From: Acorus gramineus
Taxonomy: Eukaryota > Streptophyta > Magnoliopsida > Acorales > Acoraceae
NCBI GenBank assembly: GCA_030737835.1
Contig: CM060857.1
Span: 11,246,457-11,310,456, forward strand
Direction: 5' to 3'
Length of the DNA stretch: 64,000 bases
The position numbers and the translations under genes were made by a program. How positions within the stretch are numbered: the stretch's first letter is position 1; every line of letters starts with the position of its first letter. Under the pieces are notes generated by a model. That model made no database searches. It was not told the origin of the DNA and was given only the letters and a program-made list of their open reading frames with translations. This document shows, piece by piece, positions 9,508 to 42,075 of this stretch.

Positions 9508-10432
9508 ATCGCCGCCTTTTCTCACCGCAGCCGTTCTCTGTATTTGCAGTACTTTTTTTTTTGTTAGTATTTGTGATTTAAGAAATCAATGTTTTATTTT
9601 TTTCAAATAAATTTTATTTTAAAGAGAATCACATTTAACTCTTACATAGCTTAACAAATGGGGATTTGTGTTTAAGCAGTGAATTAAGGTTGCCCCCATT
9701 TGTTTATAAGTATGGTTGATGAGAGGTTAACTTATGTATTTGAGTATCAAGGGTGTTATGATCAATTTAATGTTTTTGATGAGAAGACATGTTATGAGTC
9801 CTTATATGATGAACCCATAAAAAAAGGTCCACCCTGCATCCTATCCTTCTTATATGTGTATGGAATGAGAAATACACACACACTTAACTCATCAAAAGAA
9901 GAGGGGGAGAAGCAGGGGTGCTTGAGGGGTTATATCTTTTTGAGTTCTTCTTCTCCAGGTGTATATCAAGTGAATAGAAGAGGTTCAACCATTGAAGCAA
10001 GATCAAAGGAGGTGATCAAGAGCAATTGAAAATCTGAACTAAAAAGGTATTTCTCCATATCATGGATTCTTGTTTTCTTCCATACCTATCAAGACGTAAA
10101 GATCCAAATTATGTGCTTTGTTTGTGACTTCAAACATGAAGTCTTTGTCTCCAACATTTTTCTTGAGTGATTAGGTTTCCGAAAGGTCACATCTTTCGAT
10201 TATAAAGAAATTAAAATGTCTTCCTTTTGTATTGTGATCTATTATGCTATAGTCCAACACATAATTTATCACTTAATGATTCAGCTGAAGCACAAGTTTT
10301 TCAATTCTTATTCGTATTTCTTGATATTTCTTTCCGCAATTGGTCCTTAAAATTTGTTAGATGTTCACATTTTGTCATACTAAACCTCAACTGTGCTACA
10401 AAAAAATAAAATTCCTTGAGCATGAAATGACT

Positions 10433-10470
<38 letters not shown>

Positions 10471-10566
10471 GTCCCAATATTATCAAAACTTGAAAGTCCA
10501 TATTGTACATGATGCGAAATGAAATTGCCTGTTTTGTTAAATTGTAATTTTGATGCTTTTCACTAA
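9508..10566. repeat. Block A copy 1: upstream region of the GTF3C6 locus
   Basis: This block matches 40981-42068 with only small changes. In the second copy it runs straight into the GTF3C6-bearing block B, so A and B form one duplicated unit of about 4.5 kb. Here it ends at the Helitron insertion point. Short open frames inside it (for example 9700-10029) match no family I know and are probably chance. Confidence 0.9.
10433..10470. repeat. (GT)n(GA)n microsatellite
   Basis: A GT run is followed by a GA run. The matching site at 41916-41972 is longer, so the tract has changed length since the duplication. Confidence 0.9.
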
Positions 10567-10780
10567 TCTATACTATCTATATCTATATCTATATCTATAC
10601 TACCTATAAAAGTACCAATCCATGAAAAACATCCTTTGGACATATTTACCCTTATTAATTCATGAAAAACCATTCCTATCCCAAATGATATTTCATCATA
10701 CATATTTACCCTTTCAAATTATTCGTATTTACCATTTTACATTCTTCACAATCAATTACATGATATCATAAATTTTTTAA

Positions 10781-11048
10781 TAAATTCAATTTCATTTTAT
10801 ATAATTATATAATATATCTACATATATTATATTGTAACGTTTAGAAAATCCTTATATAAAATAGAAGTCCTATGTTTGTAATTATTAATAAAAAATATAC
10901 AAATATGTAAGGGATAAATTCAATTTCATTTTATATAATTATATAATATATCTACATATATTATATTGTAACGTTTAGAAAATCCTTATATAAAATAGAA
11001 GTCCTATGTTTGTAATTATTAATAAAAAATATACAAATATGTAAGGGA
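10781..11048. repeat. 134-bp tandem duplication in the Helitron 5' part
   Basis: Two adjacent, nearly identical 134-bp units start at 10781 and 10915 (each starts TAAATTCAATTTC). The same tandem pair is in Helitron H2 at 50216-50483, so the duplication is older than the split of the two Helitrons. Confidence 0.9.
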
Positions 11049-11686
11049 GATAAAATTGAACAAAAAATTAATATATACCCTTTCAATTACATGTTGTTTA
11101 CCCTTAACAATTCATGAAAATCTATTCCTATCGAAAATTATTTTTGATTAGACATATTTACCTTTTCAAATTATTCCAATCTAAATTATAAAAAAACCAT
11201 AATATATGTTATATTACATGCACATTTTTGTTTACCCTTAACAATTCATGAAAATCTATTCCTATCAAAAATTATTTTTGATCAAACATATTTACCCTTT
11301 CAAATTATTCTAATCTAAATTATAAAAAAACTGTAATATATGTTATATTACATGCACATTTTTATCCTTATATATTTTGAGAGATTTAATAAATAATGAA
11401 AAATTTATCAAATTATAAATTGTATCATGAAGTTTATGTTTAAATCAATGTATCTAAATTATTACAAAATCCTAATATATATTATATTACATGCACATGT
11501 TACCATATTAACCTATATATATTAAATTTCATTAATCATATATATACATATATACAGGGACGATGGGGTGCGACCGTGCGCACGGTGCACCCCATCGTGC
11601 GCCCCTGACGTGGGCCGTGCGATCGCTGGTCGTGCGATCGCACGGTCCACGTTTTTTTTAAAAAAAAAAAAATCGACCGTCTCTCT

Positions 11687-11689
<3 letters not shown>

Positions 11690-11744
<55 letters not shown>
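11690..11744. repeat. (CT)n microsatellite
   Basis: An almost pure CT run of about 50 bp lies inside the TIR element, next to the left TIR. It explains the RERERE-like translations on the minus strand. Confidence 0.95.
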
Positions 11745-11746
<2 letters not shown>

Positions 11747-11767
11747 AAACCCCTCTCTCTCTCGTCG

Positions 11768-12105
11768 ATGACGACGAAGAAATCGACCCCCGTCGACGAC
11801 GACCGCGACTCCCGTCGACGACGAAATCGACGCCCGTCGACGACGACCGCGATTCCCGTCGACGACGAAATCGACGCCCGTCGACGACGACCGCGACCCC
11901 CGTCGACGACGACCGCACGGACCCCCGTCGACGACGACCGCGACCCCCGTCCCTCTGCAACCCCCGTCGACGTTACGGACCGACCCCCATCGACGACGAC
12001 CGCGACCCCGTCGACCCCCGTCACCCCCGTCGACGTCGCCCCCATCGCCCCCATCGACCCCCGTCGCCCCCGTCGACCGTCACCCCCGTCGCCCCTGTCG
12101 ACCCC
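11768..12105. repeat. GTCGAC-rich tandem array (about 22-bp units)
   Basis: Imperfect units close to CCCGTCGACGACGACCGCGA repeat through this region and then degrade to CCCCGTCGCCCC-like DNA. Stops are rare in several frames on both strands simply because of composition, giving long open frames (for example 11768-12271 + and 11536-12240 -). I do not call a gene. Confidence 0.85.
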
Positions 12106-12447
12106 CGTTTTTTTTCGTGCGAATTTTTTTTTTTCGTTTTTGTTTTTTTTTAAAAAAAAACGAGGACCGTGCGATCGCACGACCAGCGATCGCATGGCCC
12201 TCGGACGGGCGCACGAGCCGTGCGCACGGTCGCACCCCAACGTCGCCCTATATATATATATATATATATAAAATTACATGTATCTATGATCCACCTGTTA
12301 CACACACACACACATATATATAAAAAGTTACATGTATCTAGAATTTATATACATAGCCCAATAAATATCCCTTTTGACATTCTCCCCTTTTTTTTTCTCT
12401 CCGTCAAGAGTAGTTCAATCACTAAATACATTCTTATGTTATTACAG

Positions 12448-12651
12448 AAAGACATGCAATCCAAATTTAATAGGAATTTGATCTCGTGCGTCGGGAAGAA
12501 ATATGAGTTCTACACAAAAGCTAATAAAACAAGTGAGGATGACAGAGCTATGGGACGTTGGATTGCTCAATATATAGAGCGTATCGATGACGTAGAAGAT
12601 GAAGACATCAACAAGGACGATGGATGCCAAAACAAAAGAAGAAAATTATAA
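12448..12651 (+). pseudogene. RPA70-like last exon stranded in Helitron H1
   Basis: This matches exon 9 of the RPA70-like gene at 54894-57092 nearly base for base: it starts KDMQSKFNRN, ends KRRKL and stops at TAA, with one Ile-to-Thr change (KTSEDD for KISEDD). About 30 bp of the preceding intron with its AG is kept, and the downstream flank (12652-12890) is also shared. Exons 1-8 are absent. The 5' junction lies near 12407-12412, where TAGTTCAATCAC follows the CTCCGTCAAGAG seen in H2. It is a deletion remnant, not a working gene. Confidence 0.88.
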
Positions 12652-12910
12652 TATCAAAATATCATTGCTCGTACTCCTGTTTTTATGTTTACTTGTTTCA
12701 TTTAATAAGGAAGACTTTTCAGAGTTTATGTTTTAATGAGTGTTGTATGTTTATGAACATTTGTCATTTCGATTGTTTAACGTATAGCTGATGTTATACA
12801 TTTGAGGATGTCAAATGTTTGGAAAAAAAATTATAATCCATGGTGCCTATTCATGTACTATTTAATATTATATGGTAAGTAATATTGTTTAATAGATTTT
12901 TTTTTTTGAC

Positions 12911-12937
12911 GGGGGGGGGGGGGGGGGGGGGGGGGGG
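12911..12937 (+). repeat. 27-base poly(G) run
   Basis: A run of 27 G follows a T run and GAC, and is followed by AGG. It can form a G-quadruplex and is also a place where sequencing or assembly length errors are likely. Confidence 0.9.
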
Positions 12938-13230
12938 AGGAATGGAACCCCCCTGGAATTTTTGTTTTTTTATAGGTCCTTTTAATTTTTTTTTTGTAGA
13001 TGATTGATTTAATTAGGGCCCATAGATCATGGGCTCTACATATGAAATTCCCTAAACAGTAACAACTCACACCTAAAATAAAAATAAAAATAATAATAAT
13101 CTATTATCCATATAAATCATCCATGTATATGATGTGCCCTCACGGCCTCACCCCTTCTTTTAATTAACTCTTCCCCCTCCACATAAAACAAAAGTCATTT
13201 TTTACTCTCATTTTTCATTTACCCCTAAGC

Positions 13231-14724
13231 CTCCTTCTATCCATATCCCACAAACAATCATGAAGGCACAATTCCCACTCCTCGTAGGTATACATTTTGA
13301 AAAAAATAAATTTTTGAATCTCTTTTTGTCTTTTAATGTATCTCAACTGTTCCTAATATCAATCCTCATCTCTAAAAAAATCCGTAATTGGGAATCTAAC
13401 ACCTGTAATCCTCTCCTCTCCTCTATCAACATTTCAAAAATATAGAATTTTTAAATTTTACTTTATTGTCATTGTTACTAATTTATTTAAAGTTTAAAAT
13501 ATTTGTGTAAATATCTAAAATAATTAAATCATTCAACATTTTCAGACTATGAAACCTCGTTAAGGTCAAATTTAAAATGTATGTATTGCTTATTAGATTT
13601 ATGTTTTGACATATTTTTTTGTGAATTATCAATATGAAATATGACTTCTTGTTTTAAAATATAATAATTATTTTTTTAATTATTCAGTAACATGTTTTAT
13701 ATGAATGTTTTTATTTTATTTTATACATATTTTAAATCTATGCTATTGAAAAAAAAACATAATGATATAACTTTGAAAAATATTTATATAAATCACATTA
13801 GGCCCCCATTTAAAAAAAATTGGCTCCGCCACTGCTATAACTCTCACAAAACTCTTATACATGATAGAAGCTCTAAGCATTTCATTATTAATAAAAGGGA
13901 AAATCCATAAAACCACCTGTAATTTTGTAAATATCCATATAACCCCTTGTAAACACACCATAAATGTGAATAACCCCCTGCTATTAAATTTTTTTTCACA
14001 TAGGTCAAATATTCAATCCATATCTCATTTTCTAAACAAAGTTTAATAAATATGTATTCTTTTAATTTAACCCTAAAAAAATAACAAAGATTAACATAGG
14101 TAATATGAATGTATTGAGCTTACAGGGGGTTAATATAAATATCCCAAAGATTACAGGGGGGTTATTTGGATTTTACCCTTAAAAAAAAAAAAAAATTGAT
14201 CCTCTTCTTTATCTCTTCAACTCTCCATCGATTTGTTACCCACATCGGCCACGAGACACTCTTCTGCAAATTAAAACCGTCCTCTCCAGATAGGAAACAA
14301 AAATCCAAACCACAGGTCTCCTCCACAACCCTAGGTCCAATCGGTCTCGTCAATCGAGTTCGACAGATGCACGGGGACATGCACAGCCCTGGCTTTCACC
14401 GCCTCCTCTGCAACCCCGGCACAGGGGATGCCGCAGGTAATTCATATGAAGATTTATCTGTTTTAAATTTGTTTGGGTTTTCTGTAAGTTGATTTGATGG
14501 GGTTTGTTGTGCGTGTCTAATCAGAGGTTTAAGGATTTTTTTTTCATGTAAATTAATTTTTTCCATTGAGCCTGTGTGAGATCTTGCCTCTGCATATATG
14601 CGTGTCTTCTGTTTTGAATTACCAGTAATCTACACATTTGGCATAAGTACTAAAAAATTGTTCGGCAACACTGGGTAGGCTTACAATGTCTGAATTCAAG
14701 AGTAGTATATTGAGTGTATAGTTA
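13231..14724. repeat. Block C, copy inside Helitron H1
   Basis: This block is similar to 18773-20248, 34506-35920 and 57895-59310 (copies 1, 2 and 3). It includes the MITE at 13897-14178 and an exon-like segment at 14367-14436 that ends in a GT donor. Here the match stops at about 14724, and the DNA after it belongs to Helitron H1 only. The H1 copy differs from the other three more than they differ from each other, so H1 probably took up block C before the later duplications. Confidence 0.85.
13897..14178. mobile_element. MITE copy in Helitron H1
   Basis: This 282-bp element begins GGGAAAATCCATAAAACCACC and ends, reverse-complemented, GGGTAAAATCCAAATAACC, giving inverted ends of about 28 bp with a few mismatches. 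It lies at the same place in every copy of block C, so it was inserted once and then carried along. The superfamily is unsure; target duplications are hidden in A/T runs. Confidence 0.7.
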
Positions 14725-15348
14725 TAAGTCTTCATTGCTATTTCCCTACACCTCATTATGCGTACCAAAGGAATGTCTTAATTTACACTTTTTTTCTATA
14801 GTGTGGGCTTCATGATTCTCTGCCGCATTTTTAGCCCTTTAATCTCAAAAAAACAAGGAAGTAAGGATTTGGTGGAGATTAAAAGCACTACTACTGAAAT
14901 AACTGCATTGAAAGAGGCAACTTTGCAGGAAGTTCTGTAGAGATTCATTGAGGTTGGTCTAAATCAAATTATTGTAAACAGGTAATAATTTTATCCACAT
15001 TATACCTCTTCTCATATAAGTTCAAGTGGAAAAAATTACATCATAAATATATAACATACATTCAAGTTTTCATAATTGGGTAATTAATCTTCGGGTTAAT
15101 GTTTAGACCGATTTCCTATTTATAATGGTAAAATACTTTAAAACTCTTATTTCTTCTTTATCTTTTTCAAAGAATGACAGCCATGCATATGATGACAAAA
15201 TGAAAGGAGAGATTACATGTGAGTCCAATAAACTTGAAAACATAACAAACTTGTAATGATCTAGAGTTCAATCTAAATTTAGGGCTTATCATTTTTACAT
15301 ATTTATATAAGTAAATATCTTATTTATTAAATTATCAACAAAAAAATT
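14725..15348 (+). other. Unique 3' segment of Helitron H1 with an exon-like piece
   Basis: Between block C and the Helitron hairpin lies DNA seen only here. Positions 14802-14981 look like an exon (acceptor after a T-rich tract, GT donor at 14982) with the reading SKDLVEIKSTTTEITALKEA, but the frame has a stop soon after. It may be a captured gene fragment; I do not recognise the source. Confidence 0.35.
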
Positions 15349-15377
15349 CATGTGCAATGCACATGTGCCTCAACTAG
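15349..15377 (+). other. Helitron H1 3' terminator hairpin and CTAG end
   Basis: The stem CATGTGC / GCACATG with loop AAT is followed by 8 bases and then CTAG, the standard subterminal hairpin and end of plant Helitrons. T follows directly in the flank. Confidence 0.93.
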
Positions 15378-15403
15378 TCTAATATAATGGTACTGAACCA
15401 CTT

Positions 15404-15480
15404 TTTGGCAGATTGGTAGAGATACCCCTCTTCACCGAGGGGTCCTGGGGCCGAGTTTTGCCCCTCTTGATAAGAGAAGA
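15404..15480 (+). repeat. tRNA-derived SINE-like head
   Basis: GGCAGATTGGTAGAGATACC, then TCACCGAGGGGTCCTGGGG and CCGAGTTTTGCC, resemble a degenerate tRNA body with A and B boxes and a loop-like CTCTTCACCGAGGG. It is also present at 42095-42171. It is too divergent for a tRNA gene; a SINE fragment is my best reading. Confidence 0.4.
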
Positions 15481-15954
15481 TTTGACCAAGAATAATAAAA
15501 GAAAAAAAATTTAATATAATGTTTCCCTATTCTTATTTTATCTCAATAAAACGTTGGCATTTAAAAATGCGAAAGAAATCTAAAAGTGATATGCTATATT
15601 TATATGATTGGATAAATAAAATTGAACTTCTTGTAATCATAGGCAAGTTGGATCATTTCCAAATTCATGCACTTCTAATATTTCCTCCTCTGCTCTAACA
15701 AGAACAAACAGATATTTTCATGGAGTGAAAGGAGATGTTGTTAGGGGAAATACTAAAGGAGCAAAAAATTCTTTGTTGTTTGTTTAAATCTACGCTTGAT
15801 TCTGAATCTCTATAGCATTTCGTATCCGCTTTATTGTTCTGTACATCCGTTATGGATCCCTAAATTTATTTATATTCATAATTTTCAATTTGGTGTTCCT
15901 AAGTTCAGTTGTTCTCTGGAGAAGGAGAGAGATTCTGATCAAATTATTAAAGCT

Positions 15955-18206
15955 ATGGATGATGATGATGATGAAGAAGAAGATGAGGAGTTCGTGTTGC
16001 TTGATCTCGGCAACGTCTGCGTACAACGTGACATCCCGGCGAACGCCCCGTACGTTCTTTCTGTAAGTAACACGGACTTGGCCTTTTTTAGTATTCATGA
16101 TGTAGTGGTCTTTAAAGAATGGAATATGTTTAGGGACAATTGTTTGCGCAGTTCCTTTTTACAGACTGACAAATATTTTTTTTAAAAAAATATGTATTTG
16201 TCTAATAAAGTACACACCTTTATAGAAAATATGAAGTACCTTTTCGCATTTTGTAACCTAGTATATACTAGCTTAACCTGGTATATACTGGGTTTGGAGA
16301 AAGTGAGGACTGTGTAAAGGACTGTAAGAATGACTGTTTATATGCCATTCTTATGTAATGGTCTTTAAAGAATGCGTCGATTTTAGTTATGATTGGATGG
16401 CTATACAAATAATTCGTAGATAACCCGCACAGGTTGGCTCTTTGGGCAGATTATAGGTATTCCCCATAGGCCTTGAGTTTGAACCCCCAAGACTTACCTA
16501 GTGCATCTGGCTTGTGGTTGATCACGTGCATCCGGGGATTTTCCATGACTAGTGTTGGGGTTCCTGGTCACCAAACAAAGAGTTTGGTAGACTTTGTACT
16601 GCATATTTGATGGATGTGGTTTTCATTTTAATGCTTGTTTGATTGTTTATTGGTTTATATCAGAGAAGATATGTTTTTGTTACCCTCAATTTTTAAATTC
16701 ATTGATACTAAGCATAACGTCTCTTTTAATGTGTTGTAGGGCTTGGACACACTGAACCCAATGTTGGTCATTGGTGTTAATTTGAAGATGGTGAGTTATT
16801 GACTTGTGAGATCTGTTCTTGTATTTATTTGGAACTTTTATAAAGAAAACGGGACCTGAACCTTACAATACTGATGATTTTTTTTTCTCACCCATATTTT
16901 TCTTTGACCCGATTATTTCATTTGCAAAGGAATTGGTTTGATTGGTTCTGATGACTTGTGAAGATGGTGTTTATTTGTTTTTACATGATCTGATTTCCAT
17001 ACCTTACAGTGTAGCTGGTAATATCTTTTAAAGTTTAGTTTGATGATAACATGTCCATCAAAACACAATGATTAACTGCCAAGAAATCCAAACCTTAGCA
17101 GACAATATTCTATATGAAATAATAAATCACCTTAGAAATTTCATAGTCAATGGTCCTTCATGTTTTTCTGTTGAAGGTCTCCTCAGTTGATAGCTTTGAG
17201 CCAAGCTCTTGACTCTTGATTAATGACAACTGATCTTCCCATTGACATTGTAATGGTTGAGATTTGGTTGAGGAAACTGGGCTCAAGTGCCAAGCATGCA
17301 AAGAATTGAGCTTAAGATAATGTATCCTTAATTTTCAAGATATTTGTCTTCTTAGAATTCAAATTAATATAAGCATTAGACGTTACTTTTTCTCCCTCTG
17401 CATAGATTTCTAGCTATGAGAGACTATCTATAATCTGCCATATCTGTGAAAGGGTTTCCATAGTTCTTACTGGCATGCACCTTTCTCAAATTTGGAGTGC
17501 CACCCTTCACATACTTTGAAATCATGTTTATCTTGTGCTCCACCCCAACTTTGCTTGCTTCATGTAAGGGCATGAAATCAATAATTAGGGTCCTCTCTGC
17601 AGTATATAAAACATCCTCATCATGGTCACTGTCATGCAAAGCCTGGGTAGAGAAGTCCTCAAATTTTTATGCAGATTTAAATTTGAATGTTCTGATTTCA
17701 TAATAAATGCATCTAATCACACTTTATACAAATATTGATTGTGTTCTGGTAATGTTAGCTTTTCTAACAAAGTTTTATGATGAAGCATGTCTGAGTTTAT
17801 TACAAGCCTTGATGCCTCCATAACGGTATAATTTTTTTTTTCTGGCAGATTGGGGAATACGAAGAAACCATTGGAACATGCTTTGTATTTTCCGAAAGTG
17901 GTATGTTTTGAACTTTTATGCAACATTAATCTGTAGCTACTTCATTCCCAGTAGGCGATTGTGCAGCCATCTTCTGTTAGCTGGTCATTTATCCTGTTCT
18001 AAAACTTCGCAGAATGTGGACCTGTGGTGCATGAGGAGAAGGGACCATCCGAAGCTAATCTCTTCATGGGGAAATGCATTATCGATTCAAAACAAGCCTC
18101 ATCAAAGAAAGTGAAACCTGTCGCCCGCCTACACAAGGTCCTGAAGTTTAGAGTGGTCCATGAGGATGATATCAAACTGGCTACAGATAAAACTAAAGAT
18201 TCGTAA
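15955..18206 (+). CDS. GTF3C6: TFIIIC subunit 6-like (tau55-related), copy 1
   Basis: Four exons (15955-16062, 16740-16790, 17849-17900, 18013-18206) join in phase to a 134-aa protein. The product has an acidic N-terminus (MDDDDDEEEDEEF), then FVLLDLGNVCVQRDIP, GLDTLNPMLVIGVNLKMIGE, YEETIGTCFVFSES, and a basic tail ending ATDKTKDS. The pattern DIPxNAPYVLSGLDTLNP...IGEYEETIGTCFVF is the TFIIIC subunit-6 domain, which pairs with GTF3C5 in the complex that recruits RNA polymerase III to tRNA and 5S genes in the nucleus. The start was chosen at the ATG before the acidic run; an upstream in-frame ATG at 15796 would add residues not typical of the family. Copy 1 reads LVIGVN where copy 2 reads LVIGDN. 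Helitron H1 sits 577 bp upstream. Confidence 0.88.
16432..16570 (+). repeat. SINE-like sequence in intron 1 of GTF3C6 copy 1
   Basis: GGTTGGCTCTTTGGGCAG is followed about 30 bp later by the B-box-like GAGTTTGAACCCCC and then by a body without coding potential. The same sequence is in copy 2 at about 43123-43261. It suggests a tRNA-derived SINE that predates the locus duplication; no clear tail or target duplication is seen. Confidence 0.35.
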
Positions 18207-19430
18207 TTGTAAACTGCAGCTCTGTAATCAAATTTGCTTTATATTAACACAAGTTAATCAAAGAAGTAAAAAATTTGTATTATTCAACCGCAGAACATCG
18301 TCCTACATTTCGAAGATCACATCACATGCTTCATCTATTGAGGCATATACTTTGTTAGTGAAATAGTAGTGCACGCAAGGCTGCATATGAAAACTTGTGT
18401 GTGAGAGCGCTCTTAATATAGGGATGACATTAGGGACAGTAAAATATATACTCCAAGGAATTGTACATATCAAGGTCACACTTATCTAGCAAATCATATA
18501 CTCTTGTTGGTGAAATGAGGCCGCATGTAGGGTGACTGAATACAAAGACCGCGTGTAACAGTGTTCTTTGCGGTCACCATAATTGAATACCAAGATAGAC
18601 TCATTTTGTGTCACAAATTTCACATAAAAGCAGGGAGCAACTTCGCAATTGCGTATATACATGATCTGGGAGAAGTGTATCATAACAACAATTCAATTCA
18701 AGCTTACTTATTATGTCACAGTGATCCAACATGACCAACCAAATAACCCCAAAATCACATATCATACAGAAGCATCCTTCTATTCATATCCCATAAACAA
18801 TCATGAAGGCACAATTCCCACTCCTCGTAGGTATACATTTTGAAAAAAATAAAATTTTGAATCTCTTTTTGTCTTTTTATGTATCTCAACTGTTCCTAAT
18901 ATCAATCCTCATATCTAAAAAAATACGTAATTGGGAATCTAACACCTGTAATCGTCTCCTCTCCTCTATCAACACTTCGAAAATATAGAATTTTTAATTT
19001 TACTTTATTGTCATTGTTACTAATTTATTTAAAGTTTAAAATATTTGTGTAAATATCTAAAATAATTAAATCGTTCAACATTTTCAGACTATGAAACTTC
19101 GTTAAGGTCAAATTTAAAATGTATGTATTGCTTATTAGATTTATGTTATGACATATTTTTTGGTGAATTATCAATATGAAATATGACTTCTTGTTTTAAA
19201 ATATAATAATTATTTTTTAAATTAGTAATATGTTTTATATGAATGTTTTTATTTTATTTTATACATATTTTAAATCTATGCTATTGAAAAAAAAAATGAT
19301 AAAACTTTGAAAAATATTTATATAAATCACATTAGGCCCCCATTTAAAAAAAAATGGCTCCGCCACTGCTATAACTGTCACAAAACTCTTATACATGATA
19401 GAAGCTCTATGCATTTCATTATTAATAAAA

Positions 19431-19709
19431 GGGAAAATCCATAAAACCACCTGTAATTTTGTAAATATCCATATAACCCCTTGTAAACATACCATAAATG
19501 TGAATAACCCCCTGCTATTAATTTTTTTTCACATAGTGCAATATTCAATCCATATCTCATTTTCTAAACAAAGTTTAACAAATATGTATTCTTTTAATTA
19601 GCCCTAAAAAAATAACAAAGATTAACATAGGTAATATGAATGTATTGAGCTTACAGAGGGGTTAATATAAATATCCGGAAGATTACAGGGGGTTATATGG
19701 ATTTTACCC
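19431..19709. mobile_element. MITE copy in block C copy 1
   Basis: Same inverted ends and same place in block C as the elements at 13897, 35094 and 58484; 279 bp. Confidence 0.7.
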
Positions 19710-19894
19710 TTAATAAAAAAAAATTGATCCTCTTCTTCATCTCTTCAACTCTCCGTCGATTTGTTACCCACATCGGCCACGAGACACTCTTCCGCTAATT
19801 AAAACCGTCCTCTCCAGATAGGAAACAAAAATCCAAACCACCGGTCTCCTCCACAACCCTAGGTCCGATCGGTCTCGTCAATCGAGTTCGACAG

Positions 19895-19964
19895 ATGCAC
19901 GGGGACATGCACAGCCCTGGCTTTCACGGCCTCCTCTGCAACCCCGGAGCAGGGGATGCCGCAG
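19895..19964 (+). pseudogene. Exon-like segment X1 (copy 1)
   Basis: A GC-richer 70-bp piece starts with an ATG and reads MHGDMHSPGFHGLLCNPGAG then DAA, ending CAG before GTAATT. Upstream DNA (from 19760) is CT-rich like a 5' leader. The same piece is at 14367-14436, 35565-35634 and 58954-59023. Splicing directly to the D-block exon at 21412 gives an early stop, so it may be a leader exon or a disabled first exon of an unidentified gene. Confidence 0.4.
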
Positions 19965-21411
19965 GTAATTCATATGAAGATTTATCTGTTTTAAATTTGT
20001 TTGGGTTATCTGTAAGTTGATTTGATGGGGTTTGTTGTGCGTGTCTAATAAGAGGTTTAAGGTTTTTCATGTAAATTAATTTTTTCCATTGAGCCTGTGT
20101 GAGATCTTGCCTCTGCATATATGCGTGTCTTCTGTTTTGAATTACCAGTAATCTACACATTTGGTAATGATCCCTAAAAAAATGTTCGGCAACACTGGGT
20201 AGGCTTACAATGTCTGAATTTAAGAGTAGTATACTGAGTGTATAGTTCCTTGCAGTCATTCGATTTAGGTAGAGTTAAAATGGCTTCTTTTTCTCGGTTC
20301 TTGTATTTCTAAAAAATATCTTCTTTAGATAACACATTTTTTTTTTCAGGAGTGACATAAGATTATTCACCTTTCTGAATAGGTAATTTTTTTTTGTAGG
20401 TTATTATGTTATTCTCATTGGGAAACATCAAAGATAGTTTTTGGTTGTTTAGTTAACTTTTAAACCAATTTTAAAAATGATATTAATACATCATATTAAT
20501 AACATTAACACATGTTCTTAACCAGGATTAACATCTTCATTATTAAGCCCAACCTTATACCCTGAGGATTTCTTCACGAATCGAATGTTGTACTGTGTTG
20601 TTAAGTTTATGTTTACATTTGTATGAAGGCAAAGCCTTCCTTTCTATCTTGTTACTCAAAAAATGGAAAGAAGAAATCTGATATAATTTGCATATTTTTG
20701 CATCATGCCTTCCTTTTCCACCTCACGTCATCCTTCTCATGCAAAAGTAGGCTTAGAGGAATTCCTACCTCCATCATCTCTGTTTCAATTAGGTCTCTCC
20801 CTTGCCTTGGACACCACGCAATGCAACAGCCTCCTCCACCCATAAATATTTCTGTTTACCTTTTCCAACCACAAACAAACACTCTAGACAGTAAACTACA
20901 GCGCATATCAAACTGCGCATATCATTCTCCATTTTTAGTGCCACTGGACCATCTTGTCAAGATGGCTCAATATATCCAATCAGTTCATAGGTTTCAAGGT
21001 TCATTTGGTTTAAATTTAGAATCCAAAATAGTTTGCACAGAAAATCTAACTTAGTTACGCATACCAAGTGGAATCTGTATATTACGTCCAATTAATGAGT
21101 TGTTTAAATAACTGCAACATTAGTCTACCTCAATCTCAATTGTAGATATCTAACAAAAATGTACTTACCATCATAAGATATTTTCTGACTATCACAGTGT
21201 ATGCTAGATCTTTTAGAAATGAATTGACAGCATGATGCATTTTAGAGACAAAACAAAAAACAAAAAAAAAATTGATGACAACCATTAGATAGCATCCAGC
21301 AGAATTCCTATGAGTTTCCCAAAAAAACATCCAGCAAAGAACAACACTAGATTGACTACTTTCAACAGATTAACTTAGAATGTACTTTAAATATTGTTTT
21401 TTTCTTAACAG

Positions 21412-24328: not shown

Positions 24329-27300
24329 ATGGCGATTACAGCAACTAATGCAGTTATGGTATGTTTCACGCCTCATATACATGGTTTTCATCTAATTTTC
24401 ATGTTGAGGTGTACTGATCAGCACTGGATGGATTCACATTCCAGTTTGCTGAAGGGCCAAAAGAAAGAACAAGGGATAAATTGTCCAAAGTGGAGTTTTC
24501 CATGTCTTCCTATGACACTGCTTGGGTGGCCATGGTTCCATCGTCAAATTCTCCTCAATCTCCATGTTTCCCTAAGTGTCTACAATGGTTATTGGAGAAT
24601 CAGCATCTTGATGGATCATGGGGCTTGCCCGGTCATATTCCATCTTTGATGAAAGATTCTCTCTCCTCCACATTGGCCAGTGTTTTGGCACTTAAACGGT
24701 GGAATATTGGCGAGGAACATATGAATAAGGGTGCCATGCTAGCCCATTTTATTTCCTCATTTAAATTTTGTGATATCAATATATTTTGTTTTGATTTGTT
24801 TTCTTATAAATTAGCTTTGTCAATTTCTTCCAGGGATCCAATTTATTAAGTCCAATGTTTCATTCGCCACTGATGAAAACCAGCACCCCCCAATTGGTTT
24901 CAATATCATTTTTCCTGGTATGATTGGATATGCCAATGACTTGGGTTTACATCTTCCATTGAGCTCGAGTACCATAGATGATATGATGCAGAAGCGAGAC
25001 CAGGAATTAAAAAGGTATCAGAATTTTTAATTTACATATGTTTGATATTCTCATTTTGTTTCACCTTGTAATCTTCAGTGTAGAATATCCATGGATATTG
25101 AACGTGCAACATGGAGTTTAATCTCTTATGTCAAAACTTATGCCACTCTCTGATTATAAGATTTCCTCTGTTCTTGAAAACCATATATCTGAAAGGTTTG
25201 CTTTATCAAAGCATATTGTGCTATAATTTGACAGATTAGCACTAAACACAAATTGGGAAGGTCAATGTTCTATCAATTTTACACTCTTGTTGCACTTTTT
25301 ATACACTTCAAATAGTATTTGCATATGCATTTTCCTTCCAACAAATAAAGGCCATACCTTGGGCAAGTGTGTGATACATTTTATTGGGCTGTACGTGACA
25401 TCAGTCTGTTGGAAATCTCTTGCACCTCATGAATAATGTTACTTATAAATAATTTGCTCAATGACCTACATGAACTTTGTTCCTTCTATTTTGACCCCTC
25501 ATCTTCTCAGATAAGGTGATTTGGATGATGGTATAGATATATTTTAGGTGTACTCTTGGTTGCAATCAAGACAAGGAACCAACATGATGAAATGACATGT
25601 AAAAGGCCTTGAAGCAAGCTCCAAATGAAATCCTAGGGTTTTCAACATTTACATGAAAGCATTGCTATATTGTCTTTGAAGTCTGGTTGCCTCTCTAACA
25701 AGGAACTAACATGCATGTACATAACAACTGTACATGAAGTCTTACAAGGCATCTTCAAGAAGTCAGATACATGATCTCAGTAGTGCATATATATTAAAAT
25801 ATAACAAAATATAGTATTTTTTGTAAACATTTGAAATGATTTGTTAAATTAACTCCATATGTAGCCCATGAGGCCACACATATATAAATGATCTCTTTTA
25901 TAATTGACTCGCGCAGAGTTGATGTACATAATAAGTTAATGGGACTAACACGTATCCATTATCCTTGTAATAATGACATAGACATGCAGTTGTCAGACAT
26001 AACACCTTGGAAGGCATTACTAGTGATATTCATTCTCTTCTTTGTTGTACATGATGATGTATCTATATTCGAACATTACAATCATGACTTTGTTCTATGC
26101 CATTGCTAACATACAGTGATATATCACCTCAGATGCTCAACAAATTTTAGTGGAAACAGAGCCTACCTAGCTTATGTTTCAGAAGGATTGGGAAAATTAC
26201 AAGATTGGACAGAGATCATGAAATTTCAAAGGAAGAATGGTTCTTTATTTAATTCACCATCCACTACAGCCGCTGCTTTAATGCATGGTTACAATGCAAA
26301 GGGCCTTGATTATCTGTGGTCGCTCATAGAAATGTTTGGCAATGCAGGTGATCATCATCATGGTTGTTTCCGATTTATTTGTCTCTCCTCTATATAGTAC
26401 TATTGTTTTTCTATTATCATTATCATCTGTATATGCATGTCTCCTAAATTAATAATTTTTTTCATAAAGCTGACCCCAGATATGTTGGAAAAAGATTATA
26501 TTTGAGTTGGATTGAGTATTCCTATCATGGTTTCTTTCTCATGTAGTCTGATGTCTATCATTCCAGTACCCACTGCATATCCTCTGAGGTTGCGGACCTG
26601 TTTGTCACTGGTAGATAATGTTGAGAGATTAGGCATTGCTCGACATTTCAGAGATGAAATAAAGAACATTTTGGATGAAACATACAGGTGATGCAAACTA
26701 AAACTCTCTTCATGTATAATTTTAGATTATCAGTAAAACATATGACCTAAGGCAACATACAGAAGCTGGCTACAGGATGATGATGAAATATTTTTAGATA
26801 CTGCAACATGTGCCATGGCATTTCGGCTTTTGCGTATTTACGGATACAATGTCTCTTCGGGTACTTGTTTTCAACTAGATACAATGATTGACCATGATTT
26901 CTATAATAGTAATAGGGTTATTTGTAGCTATCTATTGGGACTCTCACTGAGTTTTTTATGTTTAGATGTACTAGCTCAACTTGACAATAAAGATCCTTTC
27001 TTCAATTCAGTGGGTGAAAGTCTACAAGATATAGGTGCAACAGCTATTGAGTTATATCGGGCTTCTCAAGTCATGATATTTTCAAATGAGCTAGATCTAA
27101 AGAGACTAAATTCCTTAGCAAGTCATATTCTTAAACAACAACTCTCTAGCAGGGCTTTGAGTGGGGATATATTGCAACAACATAATGATCTAGAGGTAAT
27201 TACCTGACAAGAAACAGAACTCTTTAAATTTCAATCTGATGTCGAACTTATGTTACCTTTCATTGGTCCACTGAAAATTTATACCTTCAGGCGGAAAATA

Positions 27301-28852: not shown

Positions 28853-29691
28853 TCAATAAAACAATTCTAAGTATTGAGTTAGTAAATAAATTACTTATCT
28901 AAGTAACACCCTTGGCATTGTTTGATTTCAATTTAAATGGCTCAATATATAATCCTGATAAATCAGTAGGTCTTGTTTGGGTAAATTTCACTGAATTGAT
29001 GTGTAATGTGGTTATTGAAATTCCATGTACGTTTCTGTGTGATTATATGCAAGACCTAGAACAGGGCGATTGTTTTAGAAAGTTTTGGAATTTTCTTTTT
29101 ATCAAATATTACAAAATCAATTAGCAGTCAAATCCCAAGATAGAGATCATGAGTCAAATCAATTAAATTTATAGATCCAATTTTGTATTTGTGAAGTTCA
29201 TTTAAATGAACCTAGACTGATATTATATCCTAACTACGTTGGTCAACTTTGAGAATCGAGAAGCCGGAAGGAAAAAAAAAAAGGGATTTTTATTTTTAAG
29301 TATATGCTATTTAGTGATTAATCTCTTCTTTTTCATATTTCATTTTAAGTTTCAGTTTTTTACTCATTTTTTGTTTTTTACTTCCTATCAAATTCCATTT
29401 AACTTTAGTTTGTTAACTTAAAATTTTAAAATATTAAAACTGCTCTTATAATTTTTATTTTTGTCTTTATAAACTATGTTATTTAGTTGTTGATTCATTA
29501 CATCAATTTTATGTTCATTTTTTATATTGTATTTTAAGTCTGATTTTAAGTCTCTAACCTCAAACACTTTTTTTTTTGTTATTAATCTCTAGACAAATTG
29601 TCTGTGTGAATTTGGAAGTATTTTAATATTTTTATTTTATTAATCTATGTATTTCATTCATTAAATTAAGATTTCTGTTTACCTTTTCCAA
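28853..29691. other. KS1 3' flank and AT-rich spacer
   Basis: T/A-rich DNA with no gene seen. It ends at an abrupt junction where ATTTCTGTTTACC occurs twice within 40 bp (29671, 29699). Confidence 0.5.
28855..28860 (+). terminator. Putative KS1 polyadenylation signal
   Basis: AATAAA lies 2 bp after the stop codon. It is very close to the stop, so a later signal may also be used. Confidence 0.35.
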
Positions 29692-31068
29692 CCGTAAATA
29701 TTTCTGTTTACCTTTTCCAACCACAAACAAACACTCTAGACAGTAAACTACAGCGCATATCAAACTGCGCATATCATTCTCCATTTTTAGTGCCACTGGA
29801 CCATCTTGTCAAGATGGCTCAATATATCCGATTAGTTCATAGGTTTCAAGGTTCATTTGGTTTAAATTTAGAATCCAAAATAGTTTGCACAGAAAATCTA
29901 ACTTAGTTACGCATACCAAGTGGAATCTGTATATTACGTCCAATTAATGAGTTGTTTAAATAACTGCAACATTAGTCTACCTCAATCTCAATTGTAGATA
30001 TCTAACAAAAATGTACTGTACCATCATAAGATATTTTCTGACTATCACAGTGTATGCTAGATCTTTTAGAAATGAATTGACAGCATGATGCATTTTAGAG
30101 ACAAAACAAAAAACAAAAAAAAAATTGATGACAACCATTAGATAGCATCCAGCAGAATTCCTATGAGTTTCCCAAAAAAACATCCAGCAAAGAACAACAC
30201 TAGATTGACTACTTTCAACAGATTAACTTTGAAAGTTTCATCACTTAGCAATCGCCAAAAATGTACCTTACCTGTTTTAAATTGATAGATTGGAGATAGC
30301 CATTAATGGCAATCACACCAAAATCAGACAATGTCGAGGAAGCAAAACCTTCTAGCAAAACTTTGTTGGAGCCAAACCCATACATTAGCACACCAAATCC
30401 AACCCTGCAAGAATGTGTGATATTTAGAGTGAAAGCCAACCTTCTCCTCACCAAAAAAAAAAGAAGAAAAAAGAATGTGAATGATATAATATCCAGAAAT
30501 TCTACAAGTAGGTCATATGAGATAGCAGTATTTTCAAGAAGAAAAATGCGCCAGAGGAGAAAAAAAAAAAGGTGCTGTTGAGGAATGTGGTTATGAATTT
30601 CTTTATTATTTGATATTTTGTATATTAGGATTTATCTGGACCTATGTTAAGTAAAATCATACATGAGCAGACCAAATCCAAACCTGCAAGAATATATGAT
30701 ATTTAGAGTGAAAGCCAACCTTCTCCTCACAAAAAAAAAGAAAAAAAGAATGTGAATGATATACATCACCAGTTGCTTTATTTTCTTCCGGAGTTGAATA
30801 TTTGCAAGTTCAAAACAGACATCCCATGCTAACTTTCTTGATCACTAAGACAATAAAAAAAATTTAATCAAAATCTCCCCAATGCAGATCTTTCACTAAT
30901 ACGTAGGGGGGTTGTTCCAACTCCAATGAAACAGTATCTAATCTGCTGTTCATCTTGATCTTTCCTATAATTCATGGCTATGAATTAATTCTGATACAAT
31001 GGAGGTTTTGTTAAGCACCGAGTCCTTCAATTTTTTTTCCTTGAATGAGCTTTTAGTTGTCATACTAA

Positions 31069-31203
<135 letters not shown>

Positions 31204-31506
31204 TAGCTTTTGACAATTGTGAAGCCTAAAAGTTCTTATCCTTCTACGGATCGGGCATGCAACACCATTATCTTTCCCTTTGTTCCAAAAGGCGAGCGAA
31301 AGCGGCGAAGTCCAAGCCATAATACAATTTGAACTACTTTTTAAACTACTTTTTAAAAGAGTTGATTGTTTTGTTGCCTTGTAGTTGTTGTTTTTCCATC
31401 TACATTTTTTGGGTTGTGTAACATTTATTACCTCATTTTTATGGTCATCTACAGTTGATATGAACAGTGATTTTTAAAAAAAATTATTAGACAAGAGGGT
31501 GAAAAA

Positions 31507-33705
31507 ATGACGTATGCTCGTGAAGATTTGATTGGTCATCCTACACCGTTAAATGCGCTGAAATTTTATGACAAGATATAGAATATTAAGGTCCGAGTTA
31601 TAAGACGAGGATCCATAGAAACATACAACAACCAAAAAGGGTCTGGGGAGATATGGAAAGTGATCGTAATAGATGATGAGGTTAGTAATGTGTACATGGT
31701 TTTATGTTTTCATTACAATTTCATTTTTTAAAGTTTTTTCAACTAACATGTACAGGGGACTAGAATGCAAGCAATAATGTTCAAAGAGGCGATCTCAAAA
31801 TTCAATGCATTGCTATTAAAAGATAAGACGTACTATATTTCTAACGGAATGGTCAAACCAGTTCACCCAAATTATGCCTATGTTAACAAAATGGAGCTAT
31901 CACTCACAATTCATACACACATTGAGGAATTAGAAAGCGATTTGATTTTTCAAAAATCCATATATGATTTCACACCACTGAAGAACATTATTCAGAGTCG
32001 AAAAGTGGACGAGCAATTTGGTATGTATACTAAAACTTTTAAAATACAACAAATAGTTTATTTAATATTCAAACATGAAGACTATTAATAATTGCTGTGT
32101 ATTTCATGCAGACACTATAGCTTTTGTGTTAAATGTGAGGACTACATATAGAATGGGGAAAGATAAGGAACGTCCACCAACAAGAGTTCGAGAAATTATC
32201 ATTAAAGATATAGAGTAGAATCCTATGAAACTTCATGTTATTATCATGTAACATATATATACAACAAGTAAATAATGTTTTTCTTTCATTTGTACCAACA
32301 GGTCAGAATCAATTAAACTCAGATTGTGGGGTGACCTCGCTGACAATGAAGGAGAAGAATTAGAGGAATTGATCGCAGACAATCCTATAATTGCAATTTC
32401 AAGAGCAAAGGCTACCATGTCCGATGGTAATACACTCTACTTGGCCTTATACTTAACTATGCCTAATGACAGACATACCTACTCATTAAGTTTATAAATT
32501 AGCTTAGAAGATAAATGAATATAAGCTTCATAACGGAGTTTGTTCTTTATATTAACACATATTTCATTACAATTGTACTGGATCATATCAGCGATTTGAT
32601 ACCGGTTCATGTTCTTTTTTAAAATTATATTTGTTATTTTGTATAACAAAGTATAATTTTCATCCAGGTGAATTTTGTATCAACTCAGGAATACCTACAA
32701 CAATTGAAATCAACCCATCAATTCAACAAGCTAATGAGCTCAGACAACGGTATCATATGGATTTTATTACATAATTTTATTGGTTTTCTGATATTTATTG
32801 GTTTTCAAAGATTTCTTAAGTTATATTATGCAATCAAATTATTAACATTATAATAAACAGTTTCATATCTTTGAAGAAAAGTGGGGACCACAAATTTTTC
32901 CTCTTGCCCACAAAGACGGTGAGAGATACCACTGAAATGACAATCGATCAAATTATCCGTGAAGGCACATCTCAAGTCAAGGTATATATGAATTATAAAA
33001 CATATACACACACATATATATAACAGGTGTATTGTACAAATGAAATAATTATTATGAATAATTAACTTTTCAAAGTTAATTGAAATTGCAGACTACTTTC
33101 TGCTCATTCCAAGCAAACATCATGAGCATTGAAAACAAAAGGGAACCATATTACAATGCATGCAAGAAATGTTATAGTAAGGTTGACATGAAAGAAGGCG
33201 TAGTGGAATGCTATAAATGTAAAAAAATTGATGTCGAATGCAATCAAAGGTACGTATTATAGAATAAATAGTTATACTACTCATATGACAACTTATTACT
33301 TCTGTTGATTTCAGGTACATCTTAAAGCTTATCGTAACTGATGGTGAACAAAGTATTAAGATTACCATATTTGATGATTCAGAGATGTTAATTGGTTGTC
33401 CAGTCTCAGAATATATGAGCATGAATGGGGAGGTACGGTGAGCAATTAATTACAAATTTTTAAATAGTTCAATCACTAAATACATTCTTATGTTATTACA
33501 GAAAGACATGCAATCCAAATTTAATAGGAATTTGATCTCGTGCGTCGGGAAGAAATATGAGTTCTACACAAAAGCCAATAAAATAAGTGAGGATGACAGA
33601 GCTATGGGACGTTGGATTGCTCAATATATAGAGCGTATCGATGACGTAGAAGATGAAGACATCAACAAGGACGATGGATGCCAAAACAAAAGAAGAAAAT
33701 TATAA
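31507..33705 (+). pseudogene. RPA70-like gene, left copy with one stop
   Basis: Nine exons lie at 31507-31680, 31756-32020, 32112-32214, 32302-32426, 32668-32749, 32861-32981, 33092-33249, 33315-33432 and 33502-33705. All splice sites match the right copy. Exon 1 has TAG at 31579-31581 where the right copy has TGG (FYDKIWN). Otherwise the frame is the same as the intact copy. It encodes an OB-fold single-stranded DNA-binding protein of the RPA1 type that plant Helitrons carry. It may still give a shorter protein from a later ATG in exon 2. Confidence 0.85.
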
Positions 33706-34505
33706 TATCAAAATATCATCGCTCTTACTCATGTTTTTATGTTTACTTGTTTCACTTAATAAGGAAGACTTTTCAGAGTTTATGTTTTAATGAGTGTTGT
33801 ATGTTTATGAACATTTGTCATTTCGATTGTTTAACGTATAGCTGATGTTATACATTTGAGGATGTCAAATGTTTGGAAAAAAAATTATAATCCATGGTGC
33901 CTATTCATGTACTATTTAATATTATAAATTAATAAAATAAAAAATATAATATGCTTATTTTGATTGTTCTTCTTCTTTCAATTTTCATTATGGGCTAATC
34001 ATTATTATATATCAGCTAAAAAAAATTAATTAATATTATATTCATCACCTATATATTTTATTATTATTATTATTATTATGTTATACTGTTCATTTATTTA
34101 TGGGTTCCAATAATTAGGTTTTACTTCTTCATTATAAGAATTATTTTTTTCGTCGCTGCTGCTCAAGTGAAAGAAGACACATAATATTAATACATCTTAT
34201 TAACCAGGATTAACATGTTCATTATTTAGCCCAAACATTCTACATTGACAATTTCTTTAATATTGAAAAGTTGTATCGTGTTATTAAGTTCTCCATTACA
34301 TTCAGATGTGGCCAAAGAAGCGTGTTCTATGTGTCTGTGTATTCTTCAAATTATTATTATATGTGTAAAATTATGAAATCTATTTACAAATATTTTTATT
34401 ATAGGTATTATATATATAATATTATTCAGAATTAATATATAATCTATTGAAGTGCTTTGATTCACAGACCATTGAAGTGCTTCATCGGCCATACATGAGG
34501 TGAAA
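33706..34505. other. RPA70-like 3' flank and AT-rich spacer
   Basis: The first 220 bp are also in Helitron H1 (12652-12890). A (TTA)n run lies near 34060. Near 34180-34330 is an old, diverged copy of block D DNA (compare 20480-20630, with AACCAGGATTAACAT in both). No gene is seen. Confidence 0.5.
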
Positions 34506-35093
34506 ATTAAATTTTTGAATCTCTTTTTGTCTTTTTATGTATCTCAACTGTTCCTAATATCAATCCTCATCTCTAAAAAAATACGTAATTGGGAATCTAA
34601 CATCTGTAATCCTCTCCTCTCCTCTATCAACACTTCGAAAATATAGAATTTTTAACTTTTACTTTATTGTCATTGTTACTAATTTATTTAAAGTTTAAAA
34701 TATTTGTGTAAATATCTAAAATAATTAAATCATTCAACATTTTCAGACTATGGAACCTCGTTAATGTCAAATTTAAAATGTATGTATTGCTTATTAGATT
34801 TATGTTTTGACATATTTTTTGGTGAATTATCAATATGAAATATCACGTATTGTTTTAAAATATAATAATTATTTTTTAAATTATTCAATAATATGTTTTA
34901 TATGAATGTTTTTATTTTATTTTATACACATTTTAAATCTATGCTATTGAAAAAAAAAATGATAAAACTTTGAAAAATATTTATATAAATCACATTAGGC
35001 CCCCATTTAAAAAAAAATGGCTCCGCCACTGCTATAACTGTCACAAAACTCTTATACATGATAGAAGCTCTATGCATTTCATTATTAATAAAA

Positions 35094-35375
35094 GGGAAAA
35101 TCCATAAAACCACCTGTAATTTTGTAAATATTCATATAACCCCTTGTAAACACACCATAAATGTGAATAACCCCCTGCTATTAAAATTTTTTTCACATAG
35201 TGCAAATATTCAATCCATATCTCATTTTCTAAACAAAGTTTAACAAATATGTATTCTTTTAATTTAACCCTAAAAAAATAACAAAGATTAACATAGGTAA
35301 TATGAATGTATTGAGCTTACAGGGGGTTAATATAAATATCCGAAAGATTACAAGGGGGTTATATGGATTTTACCC
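35094..35375. mobile_element. MITE copy in block C copy 2
   Basis: Same ends and position within block C as the element at 19431. Confidence 0.7.
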
Positions 35376-37082
35376 TTAATAAAAATAAATAAATTGATCC
35401 TCTTCTTCATCTCTTCAACTCTCCGCCGATTTGTTACCCACATCGGCCACGAGACACTCTTCCGCTAATTAAAACCGTCCTCTCCAGATAGGAAACAAAA
35501 ATCCAAACCACCGGTCTCCTCCACAACCCTAGGTCCGATCGGTCTCGTCAATCGAGTTCGACAGATGCACGGGGACATGCACAGCCCTGGCTTTCACGGC
35601 CTCCTCTGCAACCCCGGAGCAGGGGATGCCGCAGGTAATTCATATGAAGATTTATCTGTTTTAAATTTGTTTGGGTTATCTGTAAGTTGATTTGATGGGG
35701 TTTGTTGTGCGTGTCTAATAAGAGGTTTAAGGTTTTTCATGTAAATTAATTTTTTCCATTGAGCCTGTGTGAGATCTTGCCTCTGCATATATGCGTGTCT
35801 TCTGTTTTGAATTACCAGTAATCTACACATTTGGTAATGATCCCTAAAAAAATGTTCGGCAACACTGGGTAGGCTTACAATGTCTGAATTTAAGAGTAGT
35901 ATACTGAGTGTATAGTTCCTTGCAGTCATTCGATTTAGGTAGAGTTAAAATGGCTTCTTTTTCTCGGTTCTTGTATTTCTAAAAAATATCTTCTTTAGAT
36001 AACACATTTTTTTTTTCAGGAGTGACATAAGATTATTCACCTTTCTGAATAGGTAATTTTTTTTTGTAGGTTATTATGTTATTCTCATTGGGAAACATCA
36101 AAGATAGTTTTTGGTTGTTTAGTTAACTTTTAAACCAATTTTAAAAATGATATTAATACATCATATTAATAACATTAACACATGTTCTTAACCAGGATTA
36201 ACATCTTCATTATTAAGCCCAAACCTTATACCCTGAGGATTTCTTCACGAATCGAATGTTGTACTGTGTTGTTAAGTTTATGTTTACATTTGTATGAAGG
36301 CAAAGCCTTCCTTTCTATCTTGTTACTCAAAAAATGGAAAGAAGAAATCTGATATAATTTGCATATTTTTGCATCATGCCTTCCTTTTCCACCTCACGTC
36401 ATCCTTCTCATGCAAAAGTAGGCTTAGAGGAATTCCTACCTCCATCATCTTTGTTTCAATTAGGTCTCTCCCTTGCCTTGGACACCACGCAATGCAACAG
36501 CCTCCTCCACCCATAAATATTTCTGTTTACCTTTTCCAACCACAAACAAACACTCTAGACAGTAAACTACAGCGCATATCAAACTGCGCATATCATTCTC
36601 CATTTTTAGTGCCACTGGACCATCTTGTCAAGATGGCTCAATATATCCAATCAGTTCATAGGTTTCAAGGTTCATTTGGTTTAAATTTAGAATCCAAAAT
36701 AGTTTGCACAGAAAATCTAACTTAGTTACGCATACCAAGTGGAATCTGTATATTACGTCCAATTAATGAGTTGTTTAAATAACTGCAACATTAGTCTACC
36801 TCAATCTCAATTGTAGATATCTAACAAAAATGTACTTACCATCATAAGATATTTTCTGACTATCACAGTGTATGCTAGATCTTTTAGAAATGAATTGACA
36901 GCATGATGCATTTTAGAGACAAAACAAAAAACAAAAAAAAAATTGATGACAACCATTAGATAGCATCCAGCAGAATTCCTATGAGTTTCCCAAAAAAACA
37001 TCCAGCAAAGAACAACACTAGATTGACTACTTTCAACAGATTAACTTAGAATGTACTTTAAATATTGTTTTTTTCTTAACAG

Positions 37083-37136
37083 ATTCTTCTTTGTCTCGCT
37101 AATCTGGTTGGAAGTACCATAGGAACACATGAGGTG
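37083..37136 (+). pseudogene. Exon-like segment X2 (copy 2)
   Basis: Identical in frame to the copy at 21412 (ILLCLANLVGSTIGTHEV). In this copy further exon-like pieces follow at 37882 and 38514, so this may be the most complete version of the unidentified gene. Confidence 0.5.
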
Positions 37137-37881
37137 GTAAGTACCAAAATTAAATGAATGTTTGCTTACATCCTTAATTCATATTGCGACTATGAGGTAT
37201 TTGAACTCTTATTTTTTTCCTTCATAGAATATTTCTTTCTTACCTTTTCTGCTTATATACTAAATTTCCATTGCTCAAAAACAATTCACAAGTGTACGAA
37301 TGTTTATGTCAAATTGTTATTACTCTTAGGAGCCAATTGGATACAGTTTTCTAAAGAAGTTCTTGTTGATTATGAATTATAACATTTTGTAGGAAATAAT
37401 CTTCTAACAATAATTACACAAAAGGAGAGTAATTGAATAATAGATTGATTATATGAAGCGTTTCAAAACCCATATGGGCTTATGATCAGATAATTTAAGG
37501 ATTAAATTTTAAACATTTTGCTTTTCCTTATCAACCTAAAAATAATTTATACATTTACATTTAACGATAAATGGCTTAGAAATTTAATTTGTTAAATGAT
37601 TCCAATCATGTAATTACAAAACTATTTTATAGTTCATTGGTAAATTGTTACTTCAATGTTATTCTACACCATCTTTCGTGCTCAACTCCAAAATAAGACT
37701 AAAAAAAGAAAGACAGAACAAGAATGATTTCTACTGATGCTAATCAAAGGCATGATGAGTAACATCACATTTTATGGCATTTCCTTCTTCATTTCCAGTC
37801 AGAAATTTAGAGTTGGTCTACTTCCATATGAATTTTGGAGGCTACATAAATTTAAGTCGATTGTTCAATTCAAATTATTAG

Positions 37882-41923: not shown

Positions 41924-41974
<51 letters not shown>

Positions 41975-42068
41975 CCCAATATTATCAAAACTTGAAAGTC
42001 CATATTGTACATGATGCGAAATGAAATTGCCTGTTTTGTTAAATTGTAATTTTGATGCTTTTCACTAA
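40981..42068. repeat. Block A, copy 2
   Basis: Matches 9508-10566. It runs without a break into block B, and the empty Helitron site is at 42063-42075. Confidence 0.9.
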
Positions 42069-42075
42069 TCTAATA
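42063..42075. other. Empty Helitron target site
   Basis: CACTAATCTAATA is intact here; in copy 1 Helitron H1 lies between CACTAA and TCTAATA. It fixes both Helitron ends to the base apart from the usual TCT ambiguity. Confidence 0.93.

Follow-up and report, generated by a model that had tools for sequence, protein, structure and literature searches.

Two copies of a GTF3C6-type locus

The window, by which we mean the whole stretch of 64,000 nucleotides that was analysed (C11:11246457-11310456 in a genome of 398.6 Mb and 137 contigs), has genes of plant-like appearance and contains two copies of a locus with a gene of the TFIIIC subunit 6 (GTF3C6) type. The gene was assigned from two joined exon translations, which match PF10419 with an E value of 8.3e-07, above the gathering score; the single 129-aa open reading frame (ORF) over the first exon gave no Pfam match. 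Duplicated sequence spans 9508-18772 in copy 1, where it is interrupted by a 4811-bp insert, H1, and 40981-45466 in copy 2. The start codon of the GTF3C6-type gene follows 577 bp after the 3' end of H1, and the insert and the gene have the same orientation. The main features are:

10567-15377, + strand: H1, almost certainly a non-autonomous Helitron (TC...CTAG, A/T target), recognised from the empty sites in copy 2 and on contig C115 and from the family ends
15955-15957, + strand: start codon of the GTF3C6-type gene in copy 1 (copy 2 counterpart at 42646)
42063-42075, + strand: empty site in copy 2, CACTAA/TCTAATA, an exact join to the H1-free copy 1

Across the insert, copy 1 reads CACTAA/TCTATACTATC...CTCAACTAG/TCTAATATAATGG, where the slashes mark the boundaries of H1, and copy 2 at 42063 reads CACTAATCTAATATAATGG. 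With H1 removed, copy 1 is identical to copy 2 over 200/200 bp (100 bp per side), which bears out the proposal of an earlier, sequence-only reading of this DNA that copy 2 keeps CACTAA joined to TCTAATA at 42063-42075. Over the longer flanks, 7 of 1059 compared bases differ on the left (29 gap columns) and 8 of 3395 on the right (3 gap columns), giving 15 differences in 4454 bases (0.34%, or 0.17% per copy).

Directly beside the insertion site, we also noticed a dispersed repeat of ~85 bp (15391-15479 and 42082-42170 of the window) that is tRNA-like by eye. In the empty-site search of the genome, for which 40 of the 43 candidates were scored, 35 of the 40 listed matches are diverged copies of this repeat elsewhere.

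The ends of H1 and its family

The empty site alone allows five placements of H1, shifted by 0-4 bases, because H1 and the right flank both start with TCTA. The placement A/TC...CTAG/T was therefore chosen from the relatives of H1 elsewhere in the genome. Read in this way, H1 begins with TC and ends with CTAG, has an A on its left and a T on its right, and lacks a target duplication. The terminal features are:

10567-10598, + strand: microsatellite of the TCTATA type at the 5' terminus, which exceeds the basic family start TCTATACTACC in length; the number of TCTATA units differs among family members
15349-15365, + strand: 3' subterminal hairpin with a 7-bp stem and a 3-nt loop
15374-15377, + strand: CTAG 3' terminus

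The 17-nt hairpin, CATGTGC-AAT-GCACATG, is followed by exactly 12 nt to the 3' end. Folded as DNA, the last 40 nt of H1 reach -6.5 kcal/mol, a value that none of 200 shuffles equalled (z -2.59). By eye, the 5' and 3' ends are not complementary, and H1 appears to lack terminal inverted repeats. The boundaries given in the sequence-only reading (TC...CTAG, A/T target, hairpin 12 nt from the end) are thus correct to the base. Its statement that they are fixed without any database was slightly too strong: the exact join can be seen in the window, whereas the choice among the five placements needed the family.

Genome searches with the last and the first 100 bases of H1 each found at least 40 places, with 40 of 144 and 40 of 277 candidates scored, respectively. 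After ends with an identical 25-bp right flank were counted once, there were 41 distinct 3' ends with this hairpin and tail, including H1; the sequence-only reading would have been refuted had no other genomic element shared the ends of H1. Of these, 39 terminate in CTAG, one in TTAG and one in CTCC; the next base is T in 40 and A in the remaining one, and the full 7-bp hairpin stem is present in 38. Among 36 distinct 5' ends, 31 begin with TCTAT after an A and two after a T, while three have no TC. Many of the 5' ends include a TCTATA microsatellite; some represent internal units of a tandem series of 5' ends.

Our survey of two-ended elements comprised 21 entries, 18 of which have both ends (L021, L022 and L038 have no 3' end by the stricter pattern). 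One more, L044, was set aside since its left edge lies inside an array of 5' ends, leaving 17 usable elements; 12 of them have no flanking repeat, four have a repeat of 2-3 bp and one is situated in a TA microsatellite. Among the 18 two-ended elements, ten are ~1.0 kb long, and two with repeated 5' ends reach at least 1.6 kb. The larger family members are H1 and its relatives on C2, C25 and C54 (4.7-4.8 kb), one on C8 (6.3 kb) and one on C10 (11.2 kb).

These flanks bear on another reading of the insert, as a non-Helitron transposon that made a 4-bp TCTA duplication. In copy 1, TCTA occurs at either end of the insert, and such an event would be compatible with the empty site by itself. In the family, no flanking repeat reaches 4 bp in 16 of the 17 usable elements, and the remaining one is that in the TA microsatellite; the 3' ends stop at CTAG (39/41) and before a T (40/41), and the ends of H1 are not inverted repeats by eye. 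A transposon with TCTA target-site repeats is contradicted by the flanks of the other family members and was rejected, its probability being negligible.

Several family ends have unusual arrangements. In L044, L055 and C1:15762707-15764506, the 5' end is repeated head to tail in units of ~300-380 bp. In L050, L052 and L053, the sequence directly after the family 3' end looks like the 5' end of another Helitron (TATCTATAAAA), and the 25-bp right flank of L052 is also that of L053. The window itself contains a second family 5' end at 49993-51184, which adjoins an FAD-oxidoreductase exon (49530-49910, PF01266); a mismatch scan found no 3' end matching it within the window.

The interior of H1 and its coding relatives

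The interior of H1 was found in three more full-length copies, on C2, C25 and C54. The C2 and C25 copies share their flanks and are one insertion site, so that the three copies represent two sites. The following features were recognised inside H1:

11555-12248, no strand assigned: nested GC-rich element that lies within a TA microsatellite and has imperfect terminal inverted repeats of >100 bp; also matched by the C2, C25 and C54 copies (L039, L040, L041)
12411-12651, + strand: remnant of the last coding piece of the RPA-like gene of longer relatives, ending in CQNKRRKL and a stop; 98.7% identical to 33465-33926
13227-14723, + strand: interior segment, 95.3% identical to 18770-20247 and, from 13302, 95.6% to 34503-35917 and 57893-59306
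14718-15377, + strand: 3' tail, common to family members on C43, C10 and C103

Since the nested element is also present in L039, L040 and L041, it is older than the spread of the 4.7-kb form. By description, it is reminiscent of the TA-targeting, Mutator-like MuTAnT elements, as far as these are described in the sections of PMC4486113 considered here. The stretch at 12960-13226 is a dispersed repeat with at least 41 matches (40 of 216 candidates scored) and was therefore unusable for counting copies of the H1 type; a run of 27 G lies shortly before it (12911-12937).

Helicase and RPA-like remnants were observed in longer relatives. The 11.2-kb element on C10, which has the same ends as H1, contains a partial PIF1-type helicase ORF of 323 aa that matches PF05970 (E 6.3e-14) and PF21530 (E 4.1e-18). 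We looked for a Rep (HUH) domain in this element by eye among ORFs of at least 50 aa and by a profile scan of two of the three ORFs of at least 120 aa, and found none. The C8 relative and an element of the window at ~29687-37547 carry pieces that we take to be RPA-like. The ORF at 33080 in the window element matches Rep_fac-A_C at E 1.1e-4, below the gathering score. In a Pfam scan of nine proteins, the H1 remnant at 12411-12651 and six other ORFs gave no match, and in a scan of eight pieces, five gave none, two reached only E 0.14-0.18 and the last is the Rep_fac-A_C match just given. When one RPA-like piece was compared with solved structures, the matches were to RNA polymerase; they were weak (E about 0.01) and were taken as chance. 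Taken by its sequence, H1 looks like a reduced form of these longer relatives.

A third copy of the locus and the polarity of the insertion

The empty-site search of the genome also led to contig C115 (260,661 bp), which starts within this locus and has no insert at the corresponding base. Over its first 21 bases, the contig agrees with the left flank of copy 1 (21/21) and is unlike the junction preceding copy 2, this match being only 21 bp long and at the contig end. In 1307 columns without gaps or N, we counted 16 private differences in C115, six in copy 1 and one in copy 2; the six of copy 1 fall within 29 columns beside an indel and may represent few events. To the right, C115 is interrupted by an insert of ~5.4 kb, after which the locus resumes, and the sequence beyond it matches copy 2, not copy 1, with 100% identity over 301 bp. 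The insert (L060:1344 onward; C115:1344-6755) starts near CACTACAACACTAGC, and we presume that it may be a CACTA element.

By its sequence, C115 is placed as the outgroup to the two copies of the window, and it looks like the unduplicated arrangement of the locus. Given that it is also empty, the empty state is most likely ancestral and H1 derived. This agrees with the sequence-only reading, which left it as an either/or whether H1 entered after the GTF3C6 duplication or was absent from the copy that was duplicated; both alternatives fit the empty C115.

The gene-proximal flank has four matches in the genome, of which three are near-identical (99-100%; two on C11 and one on C115) and one is a diverged, partial match on C10 (85%). 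This fourth locus, L070 (C10:10593707-10593976 and around), contains no 4.8-kb insert, and the site itself is unalignable base by base. In short pieces, it is 81-85% identical to the sequence upstream of GTF3C6 and is perhaps an old paralogue.

The number of near-identical versions is relevant to a further possibility, namely that the assembler mistakenly placed two alleles in tandem as copies 1 and 2 and that H1 is a presence/absence polymorphism between haplotypes. The assembly may keep some alternative haplotypes, since C2 and C25 hold one insertion site twice, and C115 is a short contig with the same locus. A diploid that lacks the duplication should nevertheless have no more than two versions instead of the three distinct ones seen, and copy 2 starts at a junction sequence that is missing from both copy 1 and C115. 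We therefore consider a false tandem unlikely.

Age and source of H1

At the Arabidopsis rate of 7e-9 substitutions per site and year, the flank divergence of 0.34% between the copies would correspond to about a quarter of a million years. This would be an upper limit for H1 only if its entry post-dates the duplication and no homogenisation of the copies took place. Outside the nested element, 15 substitutions in 3953 columns are private to H1 (0.38%), compared with 19 in the C2, 25 in the C25 and 32 in the C54 copy. The flanks reach 0.17% per copy, roughly half the value for H1, implying that part of the private changes of H1 was inherited from an unseen source or that the flanks were homogenised. 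We think that part of them was probably inherited from a source outside the copies found. No source copy identical to H1 was found, and the nearest among the three full-length copies differ from it by about 1.8%.

The same excess of private changes in H1 over the flanks also speaks for a rival reading, in which H1 pre-dates the tandem duplication and copy 2 later lost it, either because it was excised precisely or because an empty allele converted the site; the flanks, with 15 differences in 4454 bases, are similar enough for conversion to be possible. Since the outgroup C115 is empty too, excision from copy 2 is unlikely, and two losses, or conversion from such an allele, would be needed. In addition, the empty sites have no footprint, and the diverged C10 locus also lacks an insert of that size, though its site is unalignable base by base. 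An earlier H1 is thus highly unlikely, and we favour an insertion into copy 1 that is probably recent.

Identity and proposed mechanism

H1 has the TC/CTRR termini of Helitrons, an insertion between A and T without target duplication, and, by eye, no terminal inverted repeats. Its hairpin (17 nt, 12 nt from the end) falls within the range of 16-20 bp and 10-15 nt from the end, and the PIF1-type helicase of coding family members is found in the C10 relative. As far as its features were tested, the family is an ordinary plant Helitron. The exact ends, the A/T target without duplication, the hairpin and the family are all directly observed, as are the empty sites of copy 2 and of the outgroup C115, and we are highly confident that H1 is a non-autonomous Helitron. 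It would have inserted by rolling circle into an AT of copy 1 once the tandem duplication had taken place, or else on a different haplotype from the duplicated one.

The enzyme, the rolling circle and the time or haplotype of entry are what we infer from these observations. A Rep/helicase supplied by another family member would cut at the 5' TC of H1; the rolling circle would copy the strand until the 3' hairpin and CTAG stop it; and the product would be joined into an AT dinucleotide in front of the GTF3C6 gene, 577 bp before its start codon, with no target duplication. An effect of H1 on GTF3C6 expression is possible from its position. A more speculative extension, to which we give a low probability, is that members of the family can still move and that H1 has started to uncouple the regulation of the two TFIIIC-subunit genes in the tandem.

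Relation to known Helitrons

In the sections of the report considered here, the Xuan-Feng Helitrons of wheat have a 5' TC, a 3' CTAG, a 17-nt hairpin 11 nt from the end and an AT preference, and non-autonomous members are moved by a coding member, with activity demonstrated in wheat (PMC13286980). H1 has the same termini, hairpin length and AT preference, with 12 nt instead of 11 nt after the hairpin. The likeness is one of terminal features, and of the two families the wheat one is that with demonstrated activity (PMC13286980). Helraiser (Helibat1) of bats, according to the part of its description used here, has TC/CTAG ends and a 19-bp palindrome that lies 11 nt before the terminus, inserts between A and T, and uses its 3' hairpin as a terminator (PMC4778049). 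H1 is similar to it in the TC/CTAG ends, the subterminal hairpin and the A/T target; Helraiser is an animal family whose full RepHel protein is known, unlike the H1 family (PMC4778049).

Paralogous sequences without a TE insertion have been defined as RESites (PMC4486113), and both paralogous and orthologous empty sites were used for insect Helitrons (PMC6544945). From what these sources state in the passages considered, paralogous empty sites are an established tool (PMC6544945, PMC4486113). H1 is a textbook insertion of a known kind. Its empty site follows the RESite logic (PMC4486113, PMC6544945) and differs in that one window of 64 kb contains both paralogues as a tandem pair and a third copy acts as the outgroup. 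This third copy, on C115, which is empty, the outgroup by sequence and apparently in the unduplicated arrangement, is what is new here. H1 leaves the existing knowledge of Helitrons unchanged; its value lies in exact ends for one family in this genome, which are the hard part of Helitron annotation, and in a promoter-proximal insertion that is polarised and probably recent and comes with its own control copy.

Apart from the GTF3C6-type locus, we observed an exon that is 100% identical at three places, namely 24481-24849 and 62222-62590 of the window and C1:32319978-32320346. It gave no Pfam match, and no C115 match was among the genome matches reported for it. By its SYDTAW motif, we take this exon to resemble a diterpene (ent-kaurene-type) synthase.
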